From: Deltaproteobacteria bacterium
GTDB taxonomy: Bacteria; Myxococcota; B64-G9
NCBI GenBank assembly: GCA_030591445.1
Contig: JAUVBB010000006.1
Location: 1 to 41,278 of the forward strand
Reading direction: 5' to 3'
DNA length: 41,278 bases
Shown: in pieces, positions 115 to 31,988 of the stretch
How the letters are laid out: every line of letters begins with the position of its first letter
How positions within the stretch are numbered: the stretch's first letter is position 1
Made by a program: the position numbers and the translations under genes
Notes under the pieces: model-generated
What the model saw: the letters and a program-made list of their open reading frames with translations, nothing else
Told to the model about the DNA's origin: nothing
Databases searched by the model: none

Positions 115-1557
115 TCATTCCTGGTAGCCATGGACAACTACCGTGGTGGTATCAACCAGGCCGGTGTTGGGACCACCTTGCTCGGTGGACTTGGTATCAG
201 TGGCATGAAGCTCGATCAGGTAGTGGGCACCTCTTTTGGCCTTGAGTGGGAGAACCACGGAATACTCACCCTGGTTACCCAGAACCAGATCAGCCGCCCA
301 ATCGCCGTCGATGATCAGCCAGGCTGCTGCCACGCCGTTGCCGCCGCCGTCATGGGCCGCCGACAAAGCATCAAACACCCTGCCGGTCATCTCTACATCC
401 ACGAGCTTGTTGTTCGGGGGAGAAAGATAGTTGTGATAGGCATGCACAACACCGAAAGGCGGGCTGGTATCCGCATAGCCGGCAAGTTGGGCTTCGAGGG
501 CTGCCATGCCCGCGGTCAGGTCGGTCACTTCTTGGGTCAAACGGTTGATATCCGCTGCCTGGGCATCGCTGGTGGCTTGGCAGCTGGCCAGATTTCCATC
601 GCATTCAGCCAATTCTTGCTCGAGGACGGCGATGCGAGCGAGGTGTTGGGCACTGGTGTCCTGACAGGTGCTCAGCTCTGCCTCGGCAGCGGCCAGGAGC
701 GTTTGCGCCTCTGCCAACCGATCGCTCAATTGGGTATTCTCTAGGCCACAGGCAGACAAATCTGCCTGAAGATTACCAAGCTCGGTCTGCAGAGCAAGGA
801 TGGTATCGGCATCGGTCTGGGCCTGATCCTGACATGTGGCCAAATCATCTACCAGACCGGCCATGGTCTGAGTCAACGAGTCGAGCTCAGCCTCCAGCTC
901 GGCGACGCGATCGTTGAGCGTGCTTAGGTCACAGCGGTCGCCCAGGCCATCTTGGTTCTGGTCTGCTTGGTCCGGATTGGCCACCGCAGGGCAGTTGTCC
1001 AAGGAATCAGGGACGCCATCCCCGTCAGCATCACTCACGGCACAATTCGGGTAGCCTTCGTAACCAGCATCACAAAGCTCACAGTGAACACCCACGTATC
1101 CGATGTCACAGACACAGCTGCCATCGGCCTGAACCATCCCGTGGTCGTTACAGCTAGCCGCATCCGAAAACTGGCGGCCATCACCCCAATGGCCCACATC
1201 GCAGTTGCAAGATCCGTCCGGGGCACAGCTGCCCACTGCGTTGCAGGTGGTGCTCGCCAAACAATAGACACAGCCCGAAAGGCCGTCATAATAGTCGGGA
1301 GCACAGTCTTCACAATCGGCACCCCCATAACCCAGGTCGCAAGCACAAACATCTTGAGCCACGCAAATCCCCCGCCCGCCACAGACATTCGGATCGGTAA
1401 ATTCGATGCCGTTGCAAGAGTACGACTGGCCCATTACAAAAGCATCATCCACGAAGAAAGTCCACTCCCCGACGCGGCTTGGACCTACTCGAATCCAAAA
1501 GAGAAGGCACTCCAAATCAAAGACCATGTGGCTTTTTGGAAAGGGATCAAGATACAA
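115..1557 (-). CDS. EGF-like / TSP3 / coiled-coil surface-type protein, probably 5'-truncated
   Basis: The 480-residue frame has a layout typical of exported adhesin-like proteins. Residues 1-42 look like the end of a jelly-roll type domain (FWIRV...GEWTFFVDD). Residues about 48-170 hold several Cys-rich EGF-like modules (CxCDxGYxGxxCE). A thrombospondin type-3 calcium motif follows (DADGDGVPDSLDNCP). Next is a long coiled coil of about 150 residues with regularly spaced Cys, then a beta-rich C-terminal domain. There is no signal peptide. The only start is a TTG, and an in-frame stop lies 12 nt upstream, just where homology to a second copy of the 5' segment ends (see the 1516-1570 repeat). 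I therefore think the N-terminus was lost and this is a decaying or 5'-truncated gene. It could still be expressed from an internal start such as the ATG of MGQSYSC. The function is not known. Confidence 0.6.
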   Translation of the reverse strand: MYLDPFPKSHMVFDLECLLFWIRVGPSRVGEWTFFVDDAFVMGQSYSCNGIEFTDPNVCGGRGICVAQDVCACDLGYGGADCEDCAPDYYDGLSGCVYCLASTTCNAVGSCAPDGSCNCDVGHWGDGRQFSDAASCNDHGMVQADGSCVCDIGYVGVHCELCDAGYEGYPNCAVSDADGDGVPDSLDNCPAVANPDQADQNQDGLGDRCDLSTLNDRVAELEAELDSLTQTMAGLVDDLATCQDQAQTDADTILALQTELGNLQADLSACGLENTQLSDRLAEAQTLLAAAEAELSTCQDTSAQHLARIAVLEQELAECDGNLASCQATSDAQAADINRLTQEVTDLTAGMAALEAQLAGYADTSPPFGVVHAYHNYLSPPNNKLVDVEMTGRVFDALSAAHDGGGNGVAAAWLIIDGDWAADLVLGNQGEYSVVLPLKAKRGAHYLIELHATDTKSTEQGGPNTGLVDTTTVVVHGYQE

Positions 1558-2644: not shown

Positions 2645-3706
2645 TTGCTTGCATCTGTTAGAGAATGTCGTTCTGATTTGCTCAGTGAATTTCGGCTTTG
2701 TCTGGGCGAGGACAAGTCTATCATCCTCAAAAAATACGACCGAAACCAGGATGCAGTTAGGCATTTCGCCCAGTCGGTCGAACAGAGCCTTCGCCAACGG
2801 CCGCGTAGCCTGGAATGCAAATTCCTCTACGACCGGCGCGGCAGTGAACTTTACGAGCAAATTTGTGCCCAGCCCGAGTACTACCCTACCCGAACCGAGG
2901 CGGCCATTCTGGCGCGCTATGCCCAAGACTTGCCGGCGATTACCGGGCCGGTCAATCTAGTTGAGCTGGGTTCGGGCAACTCGACAAAAACATCCCATTT
3001 GCTTTCGGCCTACCAGAGCACACGAGCCAAGCTACGCTACGTGCCGGTGGATGTAAGCGAATCAGCTTTGCGGGGAGCCAGTCAATCCATTTCCCGAAAA
3101 CATCCGGATGCCCAATTCATCGGCATCAACGGCACCTACGACGATGCCGCCGCGCTTTCAAACTGTGCCGCGCCGGTCATGGTGCTTTTTTTAGGCAGCA
3201 GCCTGGGAAATTTCAGCGCCCAAGAATCAGACGCTTTTTTTGCCCGCATGACTCGGCAGCTTCCTGCCGGCAGCTTCTTCCTGCTGGGAGTCGACCTGGT
3301 CAAAGACAAAGACCTGCTGCAAGCCGCCTACAATGATGCCGCCGGGGTCACGGCCCAGTTTACCAACAACCTCTTCGGGCGCATGAACCGCGAGTTGGGC
3401 GCCAAATTGAATCTCGAACAAATTGGTCACGAAGCCTCTTACCATGAGAAACTGGACCGCATCGAGATCTACGCCCGCTTCCAAAAACGACAAACCATCC
3501 GTATTGAACCATTGCACACCGAAATCGAAATCGAGGCCGGCGAGAGAATACAAACCGAGATCAGCCGCAAATACCGTCTGAACACTTTGTTGCCCAAGCT
3601 GAAGTCTTTTGGATTTAGGTCCAGAAAAGTGATGACCGACGAGCGCGACTGGTTTGCCTTGTTGCTGCTCCAGCGTGACAATATCGATGGCGACTCCGGC
3701 AACTGA
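2645..3706 (+). CDS. egtD: L-histidine N-alpha-methyltransferase EgtD
   Basis: EgtD trimethylates the alpha-amino group of histidine with three S-adenosylmethionines to give hercynine, the first step of ergothioneine biosynthesis. The family signature runs through the whole protein: KFLYDRRGSELYEQI and PEYYPTRTE (59-84), SAM motif VELGSGNSTKT (106-116), VPVDVS, FLGSSLGNF (182-190), GVDLVKD (215-221), AYNDAAGVTAQF (228-239) and TEISRKY (304-310). Residues matching the histidine pocket of the mycobacterial enzyme are present: Y80, N189, Y229, E305 and S307. Length is 353 residues against about 320 usual. The first 55 residues contain no ATG. The TTG start at 2645 is preceded by AGGGGG at 8 nt; a TTG 33 nt further on is an alternative. 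The gene overlaps the next one by 20 nt, which implies co-translation with the predicted ergothioneine synthase. Confidence 0.95.
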   Translation: MLASVRECRSDLLSEFRLCLGEDKSIILKKYDRNQDAVRHFAQSVEQSLRQRPRSLECKFLYDRRGSELYEQICAQPEYYPTRTEAAILARYAQDLPAITGPVNLVELGSGNSTKTSHLLSAYQSTRAKLRYVPVDVSESALRGASQSISRKHPDAQFIGINGTYDDAAALSNCAAPVMVLFLGSSLGNFSAQESDAFFARMTRQLPAGSFFLLGVDLVKDKDLLQAAYNDAAGVTAQFTNNLFGRMNRELGAKLNLEQIGHEASYHEKLDRIEIYARFQKRQTIRIEPLHTEIEIEAGERIQTEISRKYRLNTLLPKLKSFGFRSRKVMTDERDWFALLLLQRDNIDGDSGN

Positions 3707-6700
3707 ATTTCGCGACGGCCTCTGCGGTATTTGTCCGGCCGGATGCTGGGTGCGGGTCGAATTGCGTGATGGCAAAATTCACCAGGTCGAAGCCCACCCG
3801 GATCACCCCCTGGGCTCCATTTGCACCATCGGTCGTCACTCCCCGCAAATTGTCCACGACCCTGATCGCTTAATGCACCCCTTGCGCCGGGTGGGGCCCA
3901 AGGGCAGCCACGAATTCGAGCGCGTCTCTTGGGACGAGGCATTTTCCACCATCGTCTCCAAACTTACCCAAATCAAAACAGATTTCGGCGCCGAAGCCAC
4001 CGCGATTTATACCGGCCGGGGTAGCTTCGACATGGCGCTGTGCGACTTCTTTCAGCCCAAGGGAGTAGCGGTCTCTTCGGCCTCCAGTGTGCTGTTCCCC
4101 TTCGGCTCACCAAACACGCTGGGCGTGGGCGCCCTTTGTTACGTCTCCTTCGCCATGATTGCGCCCCATGTCACCATGGGGGAAATGCTCATCAGTTTGG
4201 ACACCGACATCGAGCAAGCACAACTGATCGTGGTCTGGGGCGCCAATCCGGCCACCGACTCACCGCCACTGATTCACGAACAGATCCTGGCGGCCCGCCG
4301 GCGCGGAGCCGAAGTGGTGGTGATCGACCCGCGCCGCAATGGCACGGCCCGAGAGTGCGAGGCCGAGTGGATTCCCCTGCGGCCGGGCACGGATGGCGCG
4401 CTGGCCCTGGGGCTGATTCAGGTCATGCTTGAAGAAGAACTGCATGACGAGAGCTTTGCCAAGGACTGGACCGTCGGTTTTGACGAACTGGCCCAATTGA
4501 CCCAACACTACCGGCCAGAGCTAGTGGCCGGCATCACTGGGGTGCCGGCAGAGACCATCCGCTCCTTGGCTCGCCGCATTGCTTCGGCCCGCGGGGCCTG
4601 CCCGGTCATGTATACCGGTCTCGAATATTCCGATAGCGGGGTCCAGGCCATTCGCGCGGTCTTTACCCTGTGGGCGCTGGCCGGCCAACTCGATGTGCCC
4701 GGCGGCTTGCTGGTGCGCATGAAGCAAAACTTGTTCCCCCAGAACCGCTCCGGCCTGATCGCCAATCCGGACATGGGCAAAGCATTGGGTCGGGATCGTT
4801 TCCCGATCTACAGCCAGTACCGCGGCGAGTCGCACGCCATCGCCCTGCCCCGCTCGATCTTACAGGGCGATCCCTACCGGATCCGGTCCCTAATGGTACT
4901 GGGCGGGTCTATCATCACCTCCTGGCCCAACCCGCAATTGTGGCGAGAAACCCTTGGTGCCTTGGATTTTTTGGTCACCATCGACCGCTACCACACGGCC
5001 GATTCCGCCTATGCCGATATCGTCTTGCCCGCTACCACCGGTTACGAAATCACTTCGTTTATGCGTTACGGTTCCCTTTTTCGCATCCGCGAGAAAATCA
5101 TCGAACCCCTGGGCGAAGCCCGTAGCGATTTTCTGATCTTGAGTGAACTGGCCCAGCGACTCGGTTACGGCCATTTGTATCCTCAGTCCGAAGAAGAAAT
5201 CCTGCAACACGCGCTGGCTCCCTCTCCCTTTTCACTGGAACAAGTACGCGCTGCCGGCGGATGGGCACAAGTCCCCTCCGTTATGATTCAATATAAAAAA
5301 TGGGAAAAGGGTCTGTTGCGGGCCGATGGCCAACCGGGCTTCAACACCCCTTCGGGCAAATTCGAAATTGCCGCCAGCACCCTGACCGAACACGGCTACG
5401 ATGCCTTGCCGGTCTATACCGAACCGGCCGAAGGACCGCTCGCCCGTCCTGACCTGGCCCGGGATTTCCCCTTGATACTCAACACCGGGGCGCGCACGGT
5501 CTATGACTTCCGCTCCCAGCACCACGGGGTCAAAGATTTATCGAAAGCGGCGCGGGACCCGGTAGTCACTCTTAATCGTTCAGACGCAGCCTCCCGCGGC
5601 ATTGGCAACGGTGATTGGGTTTGGGTAAAATCTCCGCGCGGACAGGTCAAATTCAGAGCCCGGGTCACCGACGACATAGTAGCCGGGTCGGTGGATGCCG
5701 CCATGGGCGGTGGTGGTCCCCTGGGGAGTGCAAGCTGGCAGGCGGCCAATGTCAACGACCTGACCAACCTGGATCACTGCGATCCCATCTCCGGATTTCC
5801 CATTTACAAAACGCTCCTTTGTCAGGTCACTCGGGTCGATGGCGACACCAATGACGGCAGCCATCTGGAGGCGGGCGATGCATCGGCGGCTAGCGCTGAA
5901 AACCGCATCACCCAGCACAAAACTGTTCGCCAGGTTTACCTCGATCACAACGCTACCACGCCGGTTGCCGCCGAAGTACGAAAGGCCATGTTGCCCTTCT
6001 TGGGCCCGGAATGCGGCAATCCGTCCAGTATCCATAGTCGCGGCAACCAGGCGCGGGTTCCGGTCGAATCCGCCCGGCGCCTGCTGGCCCAGACCCTCAA
6101 TTGCACTGCCCGGCGAATTCTATTTACCGGTTCCGGCTCCGAGGCCAACAACCTGGCCCTGCAAGGAACAGTCCCCTTGCTGCGTAAAAAAGGCCGGCAC
6201 ATCGTCACCAGCGCCATTGAGCACCCGGCCATCGTTCAAACCTGCCGGGCGCTACAAGCGCAAGGATTCGATCTGACTGTGGTGGGAGTAAGCAGCAGCG
6301 GCGTGATCGACCCAGCCGAATTCGCAGAATGTCTGCGGCCGGATACCATTTTGGCCAGCGTGATGCTGGTCAACAACGAGACCGGCGTCATTCAACCAGT
6401 GGCCGAGCTAGCCGCCCTGGCCCGGCAAAAAGGCATCGTTTTTCATTGCGACGCGGTACAAGCCCTGGGCAAAATCGCCGTCGATGTCGACCAGCTCGGG
6501 GTCGATCTATTGTCGGTCTCGGCCCACAAGGCACATGGGCCCAAAGGCGTTGGCGCCCTTTACCGGCGCCGGGATCTTACTCTGCAAGCGCTCATTTACG
6601 GCGGCGACCAGGAACAAGGTTTGCGGGCCGGCACCGAAAACGTGGCCGGCATCGTCGGCTTTGGCAAAGCCTGCCAACTGCTGCAACAGCGACTGCTGGA

Positions 6701-7091
6701 TGGCGAACCGGACCGAATTGCCGTCTTGCGCGATCGCCTGGAGCAGGCCGTCTGCGCGCTGGTACCCGGGGCCCAACGCAATGGCGCCGCTGCCGGCCGG
6801 GTCGCCAACACCACCAGCCTGAGCCTGCCCGATATTCGCGGCGAGTCCCTGGTTCTTTTCTTAGACCGTTACGGCGTATACTGTTCTTCCGGATCCGCCT
6901 GCAAAGCCGGCCACCCGGACCCATCTCCGGCCTTGCTGGCCATGGGGCTGAGCGAAGCGCAAGCCCACTGCACTGTCCGCTTTTCTTTGGGCAGCGCTAC
7001 TTCCGAAGCAGACATTGATCACACCATCCAGAGCCTAGATGCCATTGTTCGCGACACCATGAGCGCCATCCGCTTCGTCTCCTGTCGATAA
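3687..7091 (+). CDS. mes: molybdopterin oxidoreductase-cysteine desulfurase fusion, probable ergothioneine synthase (Mes type)
   Basis: This is a two-domain protein of 1134 residues, numbered from the ATG at 3687 inside the end of egtD; an in-frame ATG at 3654 would add 11 residues. Residues 1 to about 722 are a DMSO-reductase-family molybdopterin enzyme. The N-terminal [4Fe-4S] motif is CxxCxxxC plus a distal Cys (C13, C16, C20, C46). The MGD-binding segments (VVWGANPATDSPP, VVVIDPRRNGTA) and the C-terminal domain are intact. C151, in GALCYVS, is a candidate metal ligand. After a polar linker, residues about 750-1134 are a complete NifS/IscS-like PLP cysteine desulfurase (YLDHNATTP; Lys948 in SAHKAHGPKG; Cys1072 in SSGSACKAG). 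From memory, the metallopterin-dependent ergothioneine synthase of Caldithrix abyssi sulfurises trimethylhistidine with cysteine-derived sulfur. Overlap with egtD strongly supports that role here. No egtB, egtC, egtE or eanB is in the window. There is no signal peptide, so a cytoplasmic site is likely. Confidence 0.88.
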   Translation: MATPATEFRDGLCGICPAGCWVRVELRDGKIHQVEAHPDHPLGSICTIGRHSPQIVHDPDRLMHPLRRVGPKGSHEFERVSWDEAFSTIVSKLTQIKTDFGAEATAIYTGRGSFDMALCDFFQPKGVAVSSASSVLFPFGSPNTLGVGALCYVSFAMIAPHVTMGEMLISLDTDIEQAQLIVVWGANPATDSPPLIHEQILAARRRGAEVVVIDPRRNGTARECEAEWIPLRPGTDGALALGLIQVMLEEELHDESFAKDWTVGFDELAQLTQHYRPELVAGITGVPAETIRSLARRIASARGACPVMYTGLEYSDSGVQAIRAVFTLWALAGQLDVPGGLLVRMKQNLFPQNRSGLIANPDMGKALGRDRFPIYSQYRGESHAIALPRSILQGDPYRIRSLMVLGGSIITSWPNPQLWRETLGALDFLVTIDRYHTADSAYADIVLPATTGYEITSFMRYGSLFRIREKIIEPLGEARSDFLILSELAQRLGYGHLYPQSEEEILQHALAPSPFSLEQVRAAGGWAQVPSVMIQYKKWEKGLLRADGQPGFNTPSGKFEIAASTLTEHGYDALPVYTEPAEGPLARPDLARDFPLILNTGARTVYDFRSQHHGVKDLSKAARDPVVTLNRSDAASRGIGNGDWVWVKSPRGQVKFRARVTDDIVAGSVDAAMGGGGPLGSASWQAANVNDLTNLDHCDPISGFPIYKTLLCQVTRVDGDTNDGSHLEAGDASAASAENRITQHKTVRQVYLDHNATTPVAAEVRKAMLPFLGPECGNPSSIHSRGNQARVPVESARRLLAQTLNCTARRILFTGSGSEANNLALQGTVPLLRKKGRHIVTSAIEHPAIVQTCRALQAQGFDLTVVGVSSSGVIDPAEFAECLRPDTILASVMLVNNETGVIQPVAELAALARQKGIVFHCDAVQALGKIAVDVDQLGVDLLSVSAHKAHGPKGVGALYRRRDLTLQALIYGGDQEQGLRAGTENVAGIVGFGKACQLLQQRLLDGEPDRIAVLRDRLEQAVCALVPGAQRNGAAAGRVANTTSLSLPDIRGESLVLFLDRYGVYCSSGSACKAGHPDPSPALLAMGLSEAQAHCTVRFSLGSATSEADIDHTIQSLDAIVRDTMSAIRFVSCR

Positions 7092-31178: not shown

Positions 31179-31988
31179 ATGTGCAGGATGTTGGGAGCTA
31201 TTTGCAACGACGAAGATCTGCTTTCCTGCGCCATTGAGGAAGTCAAAGATTCTCTCCGCTGCGAAGATGGCGAGACCCACGACGGCATCGGCGTCGGGTT
31301 TTATAGTCAAGATGATGCCCTGCTAACCAAAAAACCCAGCGCCAAGGTTGCCGAAATTGATTTCGTCAGTCTGGTCGAGGGCATCGTATCCAATGTACTC
31401 ATGGTGCATATCCGCAAGGCCACGGTAGGGGTTTGGAAAGACATCAACACCCATCCCTTCCGGTTCCGCAAATGGCTTTTCGCCCACGTGGGCCACTTGC
31501 CGCAGTTGGAAAAAAACAAGGAGGCCCTTCTGGCTGATATGCCTCCTTTCCTGGCCCGCGATATCAAGGGTGATACCGACAGTGAGTTGGCCTTCCACGT
31601 CTTCCTAAACGTGATCTTCAAGCATGGCAAAATCAACGATCTCTCCATGGAGGTTGGCCTGCTCGACGAGTACTTGCGCGAAACCGTGGCGATCATCAAT
31701 CAACAGCACGAAGAAGCCAAACGCCCCGAGTTAGCCATACTGGTGACCAACGGCGAGGTCATGTCGGCGGCCAGCCAGGGAATCGCCATGCACTACTCCC
31801 TGCGCGAGGGCATCCTGGAATGCCCGCGCTGCGAAAAAAGTGACCAACAAAAGCACATTCACGGTCGATTCAAAGGCGTGATGGTAGGTGCCGCTATGTC
31901 AAATCCCGGTCATCAGTGGCGGGAAGTGGCCGACGGCAGCCTATTGCACATTTCGAAAGATTTGGAACTCAAAGTTCAGCAGTTGTAA
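31179..31988 (+). CDS. class II glutamine amidotransferase-like protein
   Basis: The protein has 269 residues. It starts MCRMLG, so removal of Met exposes the catalytic N-terminal Cys2 of Ntn-type (class II) amidotransferases. The pattern fits YafJ/EgtC-like stand-alone glutaminase domains: ETHDGIGVGFY, VLMVHIRKATVGVWKDINTHPF, WLFAHVGHL, DTDSELAFHVFL. A C-terminal segment with a CPRC pair is extra. The ATG has GGGAGG 6 nt upstream. No synthetase partner is adjacent. It heads a closely spaced run of seven genes. A link to ergothioneine (EgtC is of this class) is not supported by position. Confidence 0.85.
   Translation: MCRMLGAICNDEDLLSCAIEEVKDSLRCEDGETHDGIGVGFYSQDDALLTKKPSAKVAEIDFVSLVEGIVSNVLMVHIRKATVGVWKDINTHPFRFRKWLFAHVGHLPQLEKNKEALLADMPPFLARDIKGDTDSELAFHVFLNVIFKHGKINDLSMEVGLLDEYLRETVAIINQQHEEAKRPELAILVTNGEVMSAASQGIAMHYSLREGILECPRCEKSDQQKHIHGRFKGVMVGAAMSNPGHQWREVADGSLLHISKDLELKVQQL

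Follow-up and report, generated by a model that had tools for sequence, protein, structure and literature searches.

Does a two-gene locus in a genome of the Myxococcota encode a complete route to the antioxidant ergothioneine that does without oxygen? The enzyme class in question, metallopterin-dependent ergothioneine synthase (MES), was reported from Caldithrix abyssi in 2022 by Beliaeva and Seebeck (PMC9516567), whose main text demonstrates activity of the C. abyssi enzyme (CaMES) in E. coli and sulfur transfer inside one polypeptide. In the window, by which we mean the whole stretch of 41,278 nucleotides analysed, we found egtD followed by a gene that joins a metallopterin module to a cysteine desulfurase. 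We put at roughly 92% the probability that the locus encodes a complete ergothioneine pathway of two enzymes, the fusion being MES, and, judging from sequence, the pair very probably makes ergothioneine without oxygen. The direct basis of the assignment is the genes, residues, clade, egtD linkage and the absence of other known sulfurizing enzymes, from which we infer the same activity for the window protein. What is new here is one more representative of an enzyme class described only recently, ordinary in kind.

The original prediction had egtD overlapped by the fusion gene over 20 nt, and the open reading frames (2645-3706 and 3687-7091) bear this out. The features of the locus are as follows.

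2645-3706, + strand: egtD, L-histidine N-alpha-methyltransferase, 353 aa, TTG start (TIGR03438, PF10017, EgtD structures)
3687-3706, + strand: 20-nt overlap of egtD and the MES gene (open reading frame coordinates)
3687-5831, + strand: MES residues 1-715, predicted N-terminal metallopterin module ([4Fe-4S] and bis-MGD, DMSO-reductase family; Pfam, acetylene hydratase match, tree)
3723-3725, + strand: Cys13, first of the [4Fe-4S] cysteines 13, 16, 20 and 46 (CaMES 14, 17, 21 and 48; 66/66 full-length sequences)
4137-4139, + strand: Cys151, predicted Mo/W ligand (CaMES Cys153; 66/66, aligns with the acetylene hydratase cysteine)
5832-5927, + strand: flexible linker between the modules, residues 716-747 (pLDDT <50 at 720-746; varies among relatives)
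5928-7091, + strand: MES residues 748-1134 and stop codon, C-terminal NifS/IscS-type cysteine desulfurase (Aminotran_5, TIGR03402, IscS structures)
6528-6530, + strand: Lys948, PLP lysine (CaMES Lys952; 66/66)
6900-6902, + strand: Cys1072, desulfurase catalytic cysteine (CaMES Cys1074; 66/66)
7083-7085, + strand: Cys1133, penultimate residue, putative second persulfide relay (CaMES Cys1135; 65/66, the remaining sequence being truncated), on a tail predicted to be disordered (pLDDT)

The MES gene reads from ATG 3687 for 1134 aa to a stop codon at 7089-7091, in a frame already open from TTG 3654. The sequence AGGGGGG lies 7 nt upstream of the egtD TTG. No clear ribosome-binding site was seen in the sequence upstream of the MES ATG which, together with the overlap, suggests translational coupling of the two genes. 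Elsewhere in the window, positions 115-1557 (- strand) encode a protein that carries EGF-like and thrombospondin type 3 motifs and is predicted to be of surface type. A plasmid search returned no record spanning 80% of the fused protein.

The window EgtD scores 327 bits against TIGR03438 (NCBIfam; cut-off 290.9, profile positions 2-300 of 301) and 337 bits against Pfam Methyltransf_33 (PF10017), and its best solved relative is an EgtD structure (E = 9e-58). It thus resembles known EgtD proteins (TIGR03438; structures 4pim and 4uy5) over its full length and keeps the PEYYPTRTEA and TE-S-K motifs; it differs from known EgtD systems in that its partner is MES rather than EgtB. It is also the only PF10017 gene in the host genome. 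The fusion carries the Pfam domains Molybdop_Fe4S4 (10-57), Molybdopterin (61-490), Molydop_binding (596-709) and Aminotran_5 (750-1111). Hence the claim that a [4Fe-4S] DMSO-reductase-type domain and a NifS/IscS-like desulfurase share one gene stands, with PLP Lys948 and Cys1072 both in place. The desulfurase half is NifS-like (TIGR03402, 443 bits), yet falls under the NifS equivalog cut-off, as expected of a specialised branch.

The main text of PMC9516567 describes CaMES as a protein of 1136 residues with FeS cysteines 14, 17, 21 and 48, metal ligand Cys153, PLP lysine 952, catalytic Cys1074 and relay Cys1135. It also reports that ergothioneine formation is nearly lost when Cys153, Lys952, Cys1074 or Cys1135 is mutated, whereas a change of Cys1097 causes a two-fold loss. 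Every residue essential in CaMES has a counterpart in the window protein (Cys13, 16, 20 and 46, Cys151, Lys948, Cys1072, Cys1133), with Cys1095 for Cys1097. This comparison uses published residue numbers and Calditrichota relatives, the assayed CaMES, AbMES, EaMES and hvMES being outside the alignments. Counted from the first FeS cysteine, the spacing is 3, 7, 33, 138, 935, 1059 and 1120 in the window versus 3, 7, 34, 139, 938, 1060 and 1121 in CaMES, a difference of at most 3 residues, and the C-terminal part (1072 to 1095 to 1133) is spaced identically. As read from sequence, the two proteins thus share domain order, length (1134 versus 1136 aa) and the FeS, metal-ligand, PLP, catalytic and penultimate relay residues, as well as the link to egtD, and for both the nearest solved relative is acetylene hydratase. 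The window protein is 54-57% identical to the Calditrichota homologues (CaMES itself is outside this alignment). The original prediction named the PLP lysine and the catalytic cysteine and passed over two equally important residues, the metal ligand Cys151 and the second persulfide relay Cys1133. The essential residues are invariant across 66 full-length fusions, save for one sequence cut at its end. Cys1095 is the sole variable cysteine of the relay region (Ser once, Gly once), in agreement with the published mutagenesis, where loss of CaMES Cys1097 costs only two-fold. Two further cysteines, Cys119 (4041-4043) and Cys712 (5820-5822), are found in 64/66 and 62/66 MES, respectively; the main text of PMC9516567 assigns them no role.

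The closest PDB match of the metallopterin module, by both sequence and fold, is acetylene hydratase of Syntrophotalea (Pelobacter) acetylenica (2e7z), which shares the fold and the cysteine metal ligand but has 26% identity, lacks a desulfurase and catalyses another reaction. Foldseek on the predicted model likewise put acetylene hydratase at the top (TM 0.83 over the target), followed by formate dehydrogenases and other family members, while the desulfurase half returned IscS/Nfs1. No MES structure was seen in the PDB by sequence or fold search. The original prediction had looked to a structural model for the path between the domains. In the AlphaFold model (52 sequences, mean pLDDT 84, pTM 0.64) pLDDT falls below 50 in the linker (720-746), in a loop just past Cys1072 (1073-1075) and in the Cys1133 tail (1126-1134); the relative placement of the two modules in this model is unreliable. 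The low-confidence linker and tail would fit a mobile relay arm but do not prove it.

A scan for relatives with the metallopterin module alone as query gave 75 loci. Their record titles point to Myxococcota, Desulfobacterota-type lineages including Geobacter relatives, Gemmatimonadota, Acidobacteriota, Actinomycetes, Chloroflexota, Calditrichota, Planctomycete lineages, Gammaproteobacteria and others, and on these sequences MES appears common across many phyla. A desulfurase follows in the same frame at nearly all loci with enough sequence. At about 50 of the 75 loci egtD lies within 1.5 kb of MES, on either side of it and not always in the same orientation (48 assigned automatically, plus L050 and L097, the neighbour being hidden by an over-long open frame). 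Because the fusion recurs in the 66 full-length sequences, the window's included, and has egtD as neighbour at so many loci, its architecture is neither chance nor a chimeric assembly. The nearest relative (L010/L030, one locus) shows 68% identity over the protein and comes from a Myxococcales MAG of the host's family; its egtD (L030:4733-6017) is broken into two frames, with bases unresolved at the junction, which probably reflects an assembly gap. One Gemmatimonadota genome, bin1194, holds two MES loci (L037 and L104): one is full and has no egtD, and the other adjoins egtD but has an open frame that stops after about 440 codons.

In the module tree, 73 MES-type sequences, the window's among them, form one clade (support 0.977) that excludes E. 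coli FdhF and DmsA and three molybdoenzymes of the host; in the desulfurase tree all 68 MES modules group together and 17 stand-alone desulfurases fall outside, at a lower support of 0.81. Both are FastTree trees only, with few outgroups and midpoint rooting and with the four assayed MES not included. Together with the complete residue set, this placement upholds the proposed identity as a Caldithrix-type MES. Sister to the MES-type clade are three stand-alone metallopterin proteins (L089:5959-8112, L090:5184-7376 and L093:3928-6132), 43-48% identical to the MES module. They keep the four FeS cysteines and the cysteine ligand, are without a desulfurase and have no egtD nearby; from their sequences, they possibly represent an unknown enzyme family.

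The tree also bears on the alternative that survives best, in which the fusion is a molybdoenzyme of some other type that sulfurates itself (with formate, thiosulfate or polysulfide chemistry, for example), its desulfurase serves only cofactor maturation in the manner of Moco sulfurases, and egtD lies next to it by chance. Formate dehydrogenase and similar DMSO-reductase-family enzymes do require a sulfurated cofactor according to the main text of PMC9516567, and general family models (Fdh-alpha, PhsA) match the module, all below cut-off. However, the recurrent egtD linkage in varied arrangements argues against a chance neighbour, and no electron-transfer partner subunit was recognised among the window's open reading frames beside the gene. 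A grouping of the module with formate enzymes away from MES, an outcome raised in the original prediction, was not seen, since neither FdhF nor DmsA nor the three molybdoenzymes of the host fall with it in the tree. For polysulfide/thiosulfate reductase the evidence is sequence and fold comparison only, with 24% identity in the fold alignment and a rank behind acetylene hydratase. We therefore regard this alternative as very unlikely.

With the fusion read as MES, the pathway would run as follows. EgtD would trimethylate histidine to hercynine (TMH). The C-terminal PLP desulfurase would move cysteine sulfur onto Cys1072, and the resulting persulfide would be passed to Cys1133 on the mobile C-terminal tail. 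Cys1133 would in turn load sulfur onto the Mo/W centre, liganded by Cys151, in the N-terminal module, and the metal sulfide would then sulfurize the hercynine imidazole at C2 without requiring O2. Sulfur transfer by CaMES is chemically reversible in cells (main text of PMC9516567), which leaves room for a MES fold whose substrate has changed (a different imidazole, or selenium for sulfur) or one that mainly takes sulfur from ergothioneine, but this is more improbable still, since the linked EgtD would make hercynine, the MES substrate, and the relay residues, unneeded by a reverse-only enzyme, are all intact.

The two other known synthases, EgtB (O2-dependent) and EanB (rhodanese-type, using polysulfide), give the same product from the same hercynine but are unrelated to MES as proteins. 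Their absence, originally noted for the window, extends to the host genome of this Myxococcota member (94% complete, 610 contigs, so that absences are not absolute). No TIGR03440 match there is above the EgtB cut-off (best 63 bits versus 360, covering only the C-terminal part of the model), and the matches were rejected as EgtB, since all score far below the cut-off and nearly all are C-terminal-domain matches. EanB is a long rhodanese-type protein with active Cys412, hence of more than 400 residues; judged by this form, none of the seven PF00581 matches in the genome is EanB-like, six being short single-domain proteins and one a SulP-transporter fusion. A class-II glutamine amidotransferase in the window (GATase_4, 31179-31988) was rejected as EgtC (67.9 versus 218.65 bits) and is probably not EgtC. 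Cofactor supply for the host MES seems likely from the gene content, as the genome encodes a MoaA-like protein (274 versus 284 bits, under the equivalog cut-off), a MobA-like protein likewise under its cut-off, and several other DMSO-reductase-family enzymes. The host has one homologue of haem-copper oxidase subunit I, nearest to cbb3-type CcoN and under the equivalog cut-off, which may be an oxidase or a NO reductase; no aa3-type oxidase was found in the genome. 'Oxygen-independent' describes the type of reaction and says nothing of the host being an anaerobe, which does not follow because this CcoN-like subunit is carried. In its phylum and in this gene the host differs from that of CaMES, and it may not be a strict anaerobe.

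The main text of PMC9516567 states that MES is encoded exclusively in anaerobes and lists 55 genomes. Here, however, a match to CtaD (aa3-type) above 530 bits is present in 22 of 46 other MES genomes, 8 of these over the strict cut-off, although oxidase genes do not prove aerobic growth. EgtB is over the cut-off in 5 of the 50 MES genomes searched, namely Anaeromyxobacter terrae (L063), A. soli (L087), a Thiodictyon MAG (L056), a MAG labelled Polaromonas (L041) and Myxococcales UBA5297 (L032). In both Anaeromyxobacter genomes and in Thiodictyon an EgtD homologue adjoins EgtB, and in none of the five is egtD beside MES (0/5; the downstream flank of L056 spans only 265 bases). EgtB was found in 0/34 scorable genomes with egtD beside MES versus 4/10 without (L050 counted as adjacent), a post hoc contrast among non-independent genomes in which MAGs are possibly contaminated, whereas Anaeromyxobacter is represented by named strain assemblies. 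The host's ergothioneine could in principle come mainly from an EgtB or EanB encoded in sequence that the assembly lacks, with MES as an accessory; the incomplete assembly and the five EgtB-positive genomes would allow this, but the window has the arrangement for which none of the 34 genomes showed EgtB over cut-off, and we consider it just as improbable as a shifted or reversed MES. A literature search found no paper joining ergothioneine with Anaeromyxobacter, subscription papers and the supplement of PMC9516567 aside. Overall, we give even odds to a picture in which MES is not confined to strict anaerobes but is widespread in lineages with genes for O2 respiration (Myxococcota, Gemmatimonadota, Geobacterales, Anaeromyxobacter), and some members keep both the O2-dependent EgtB with its own egtD and a MES that has no egtD partner, which would let a single hercynine pool be thiolated with or without oxygen.

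The two-gene ergothioneine route thus probably extends to Myxococcota, a phylum unnamed in the main text of PMC9516567, and MES is more widespread than the 55 genomes listed there and occurs in genomes that have genes of O2 respiration. Anaeromyxobacter terrae and A. soli, which carry both EgtB and MES, allow a direct test of the reason for retaining an oxygen-independent synthesis of ergothioneine, which the main text of that report does not settle.
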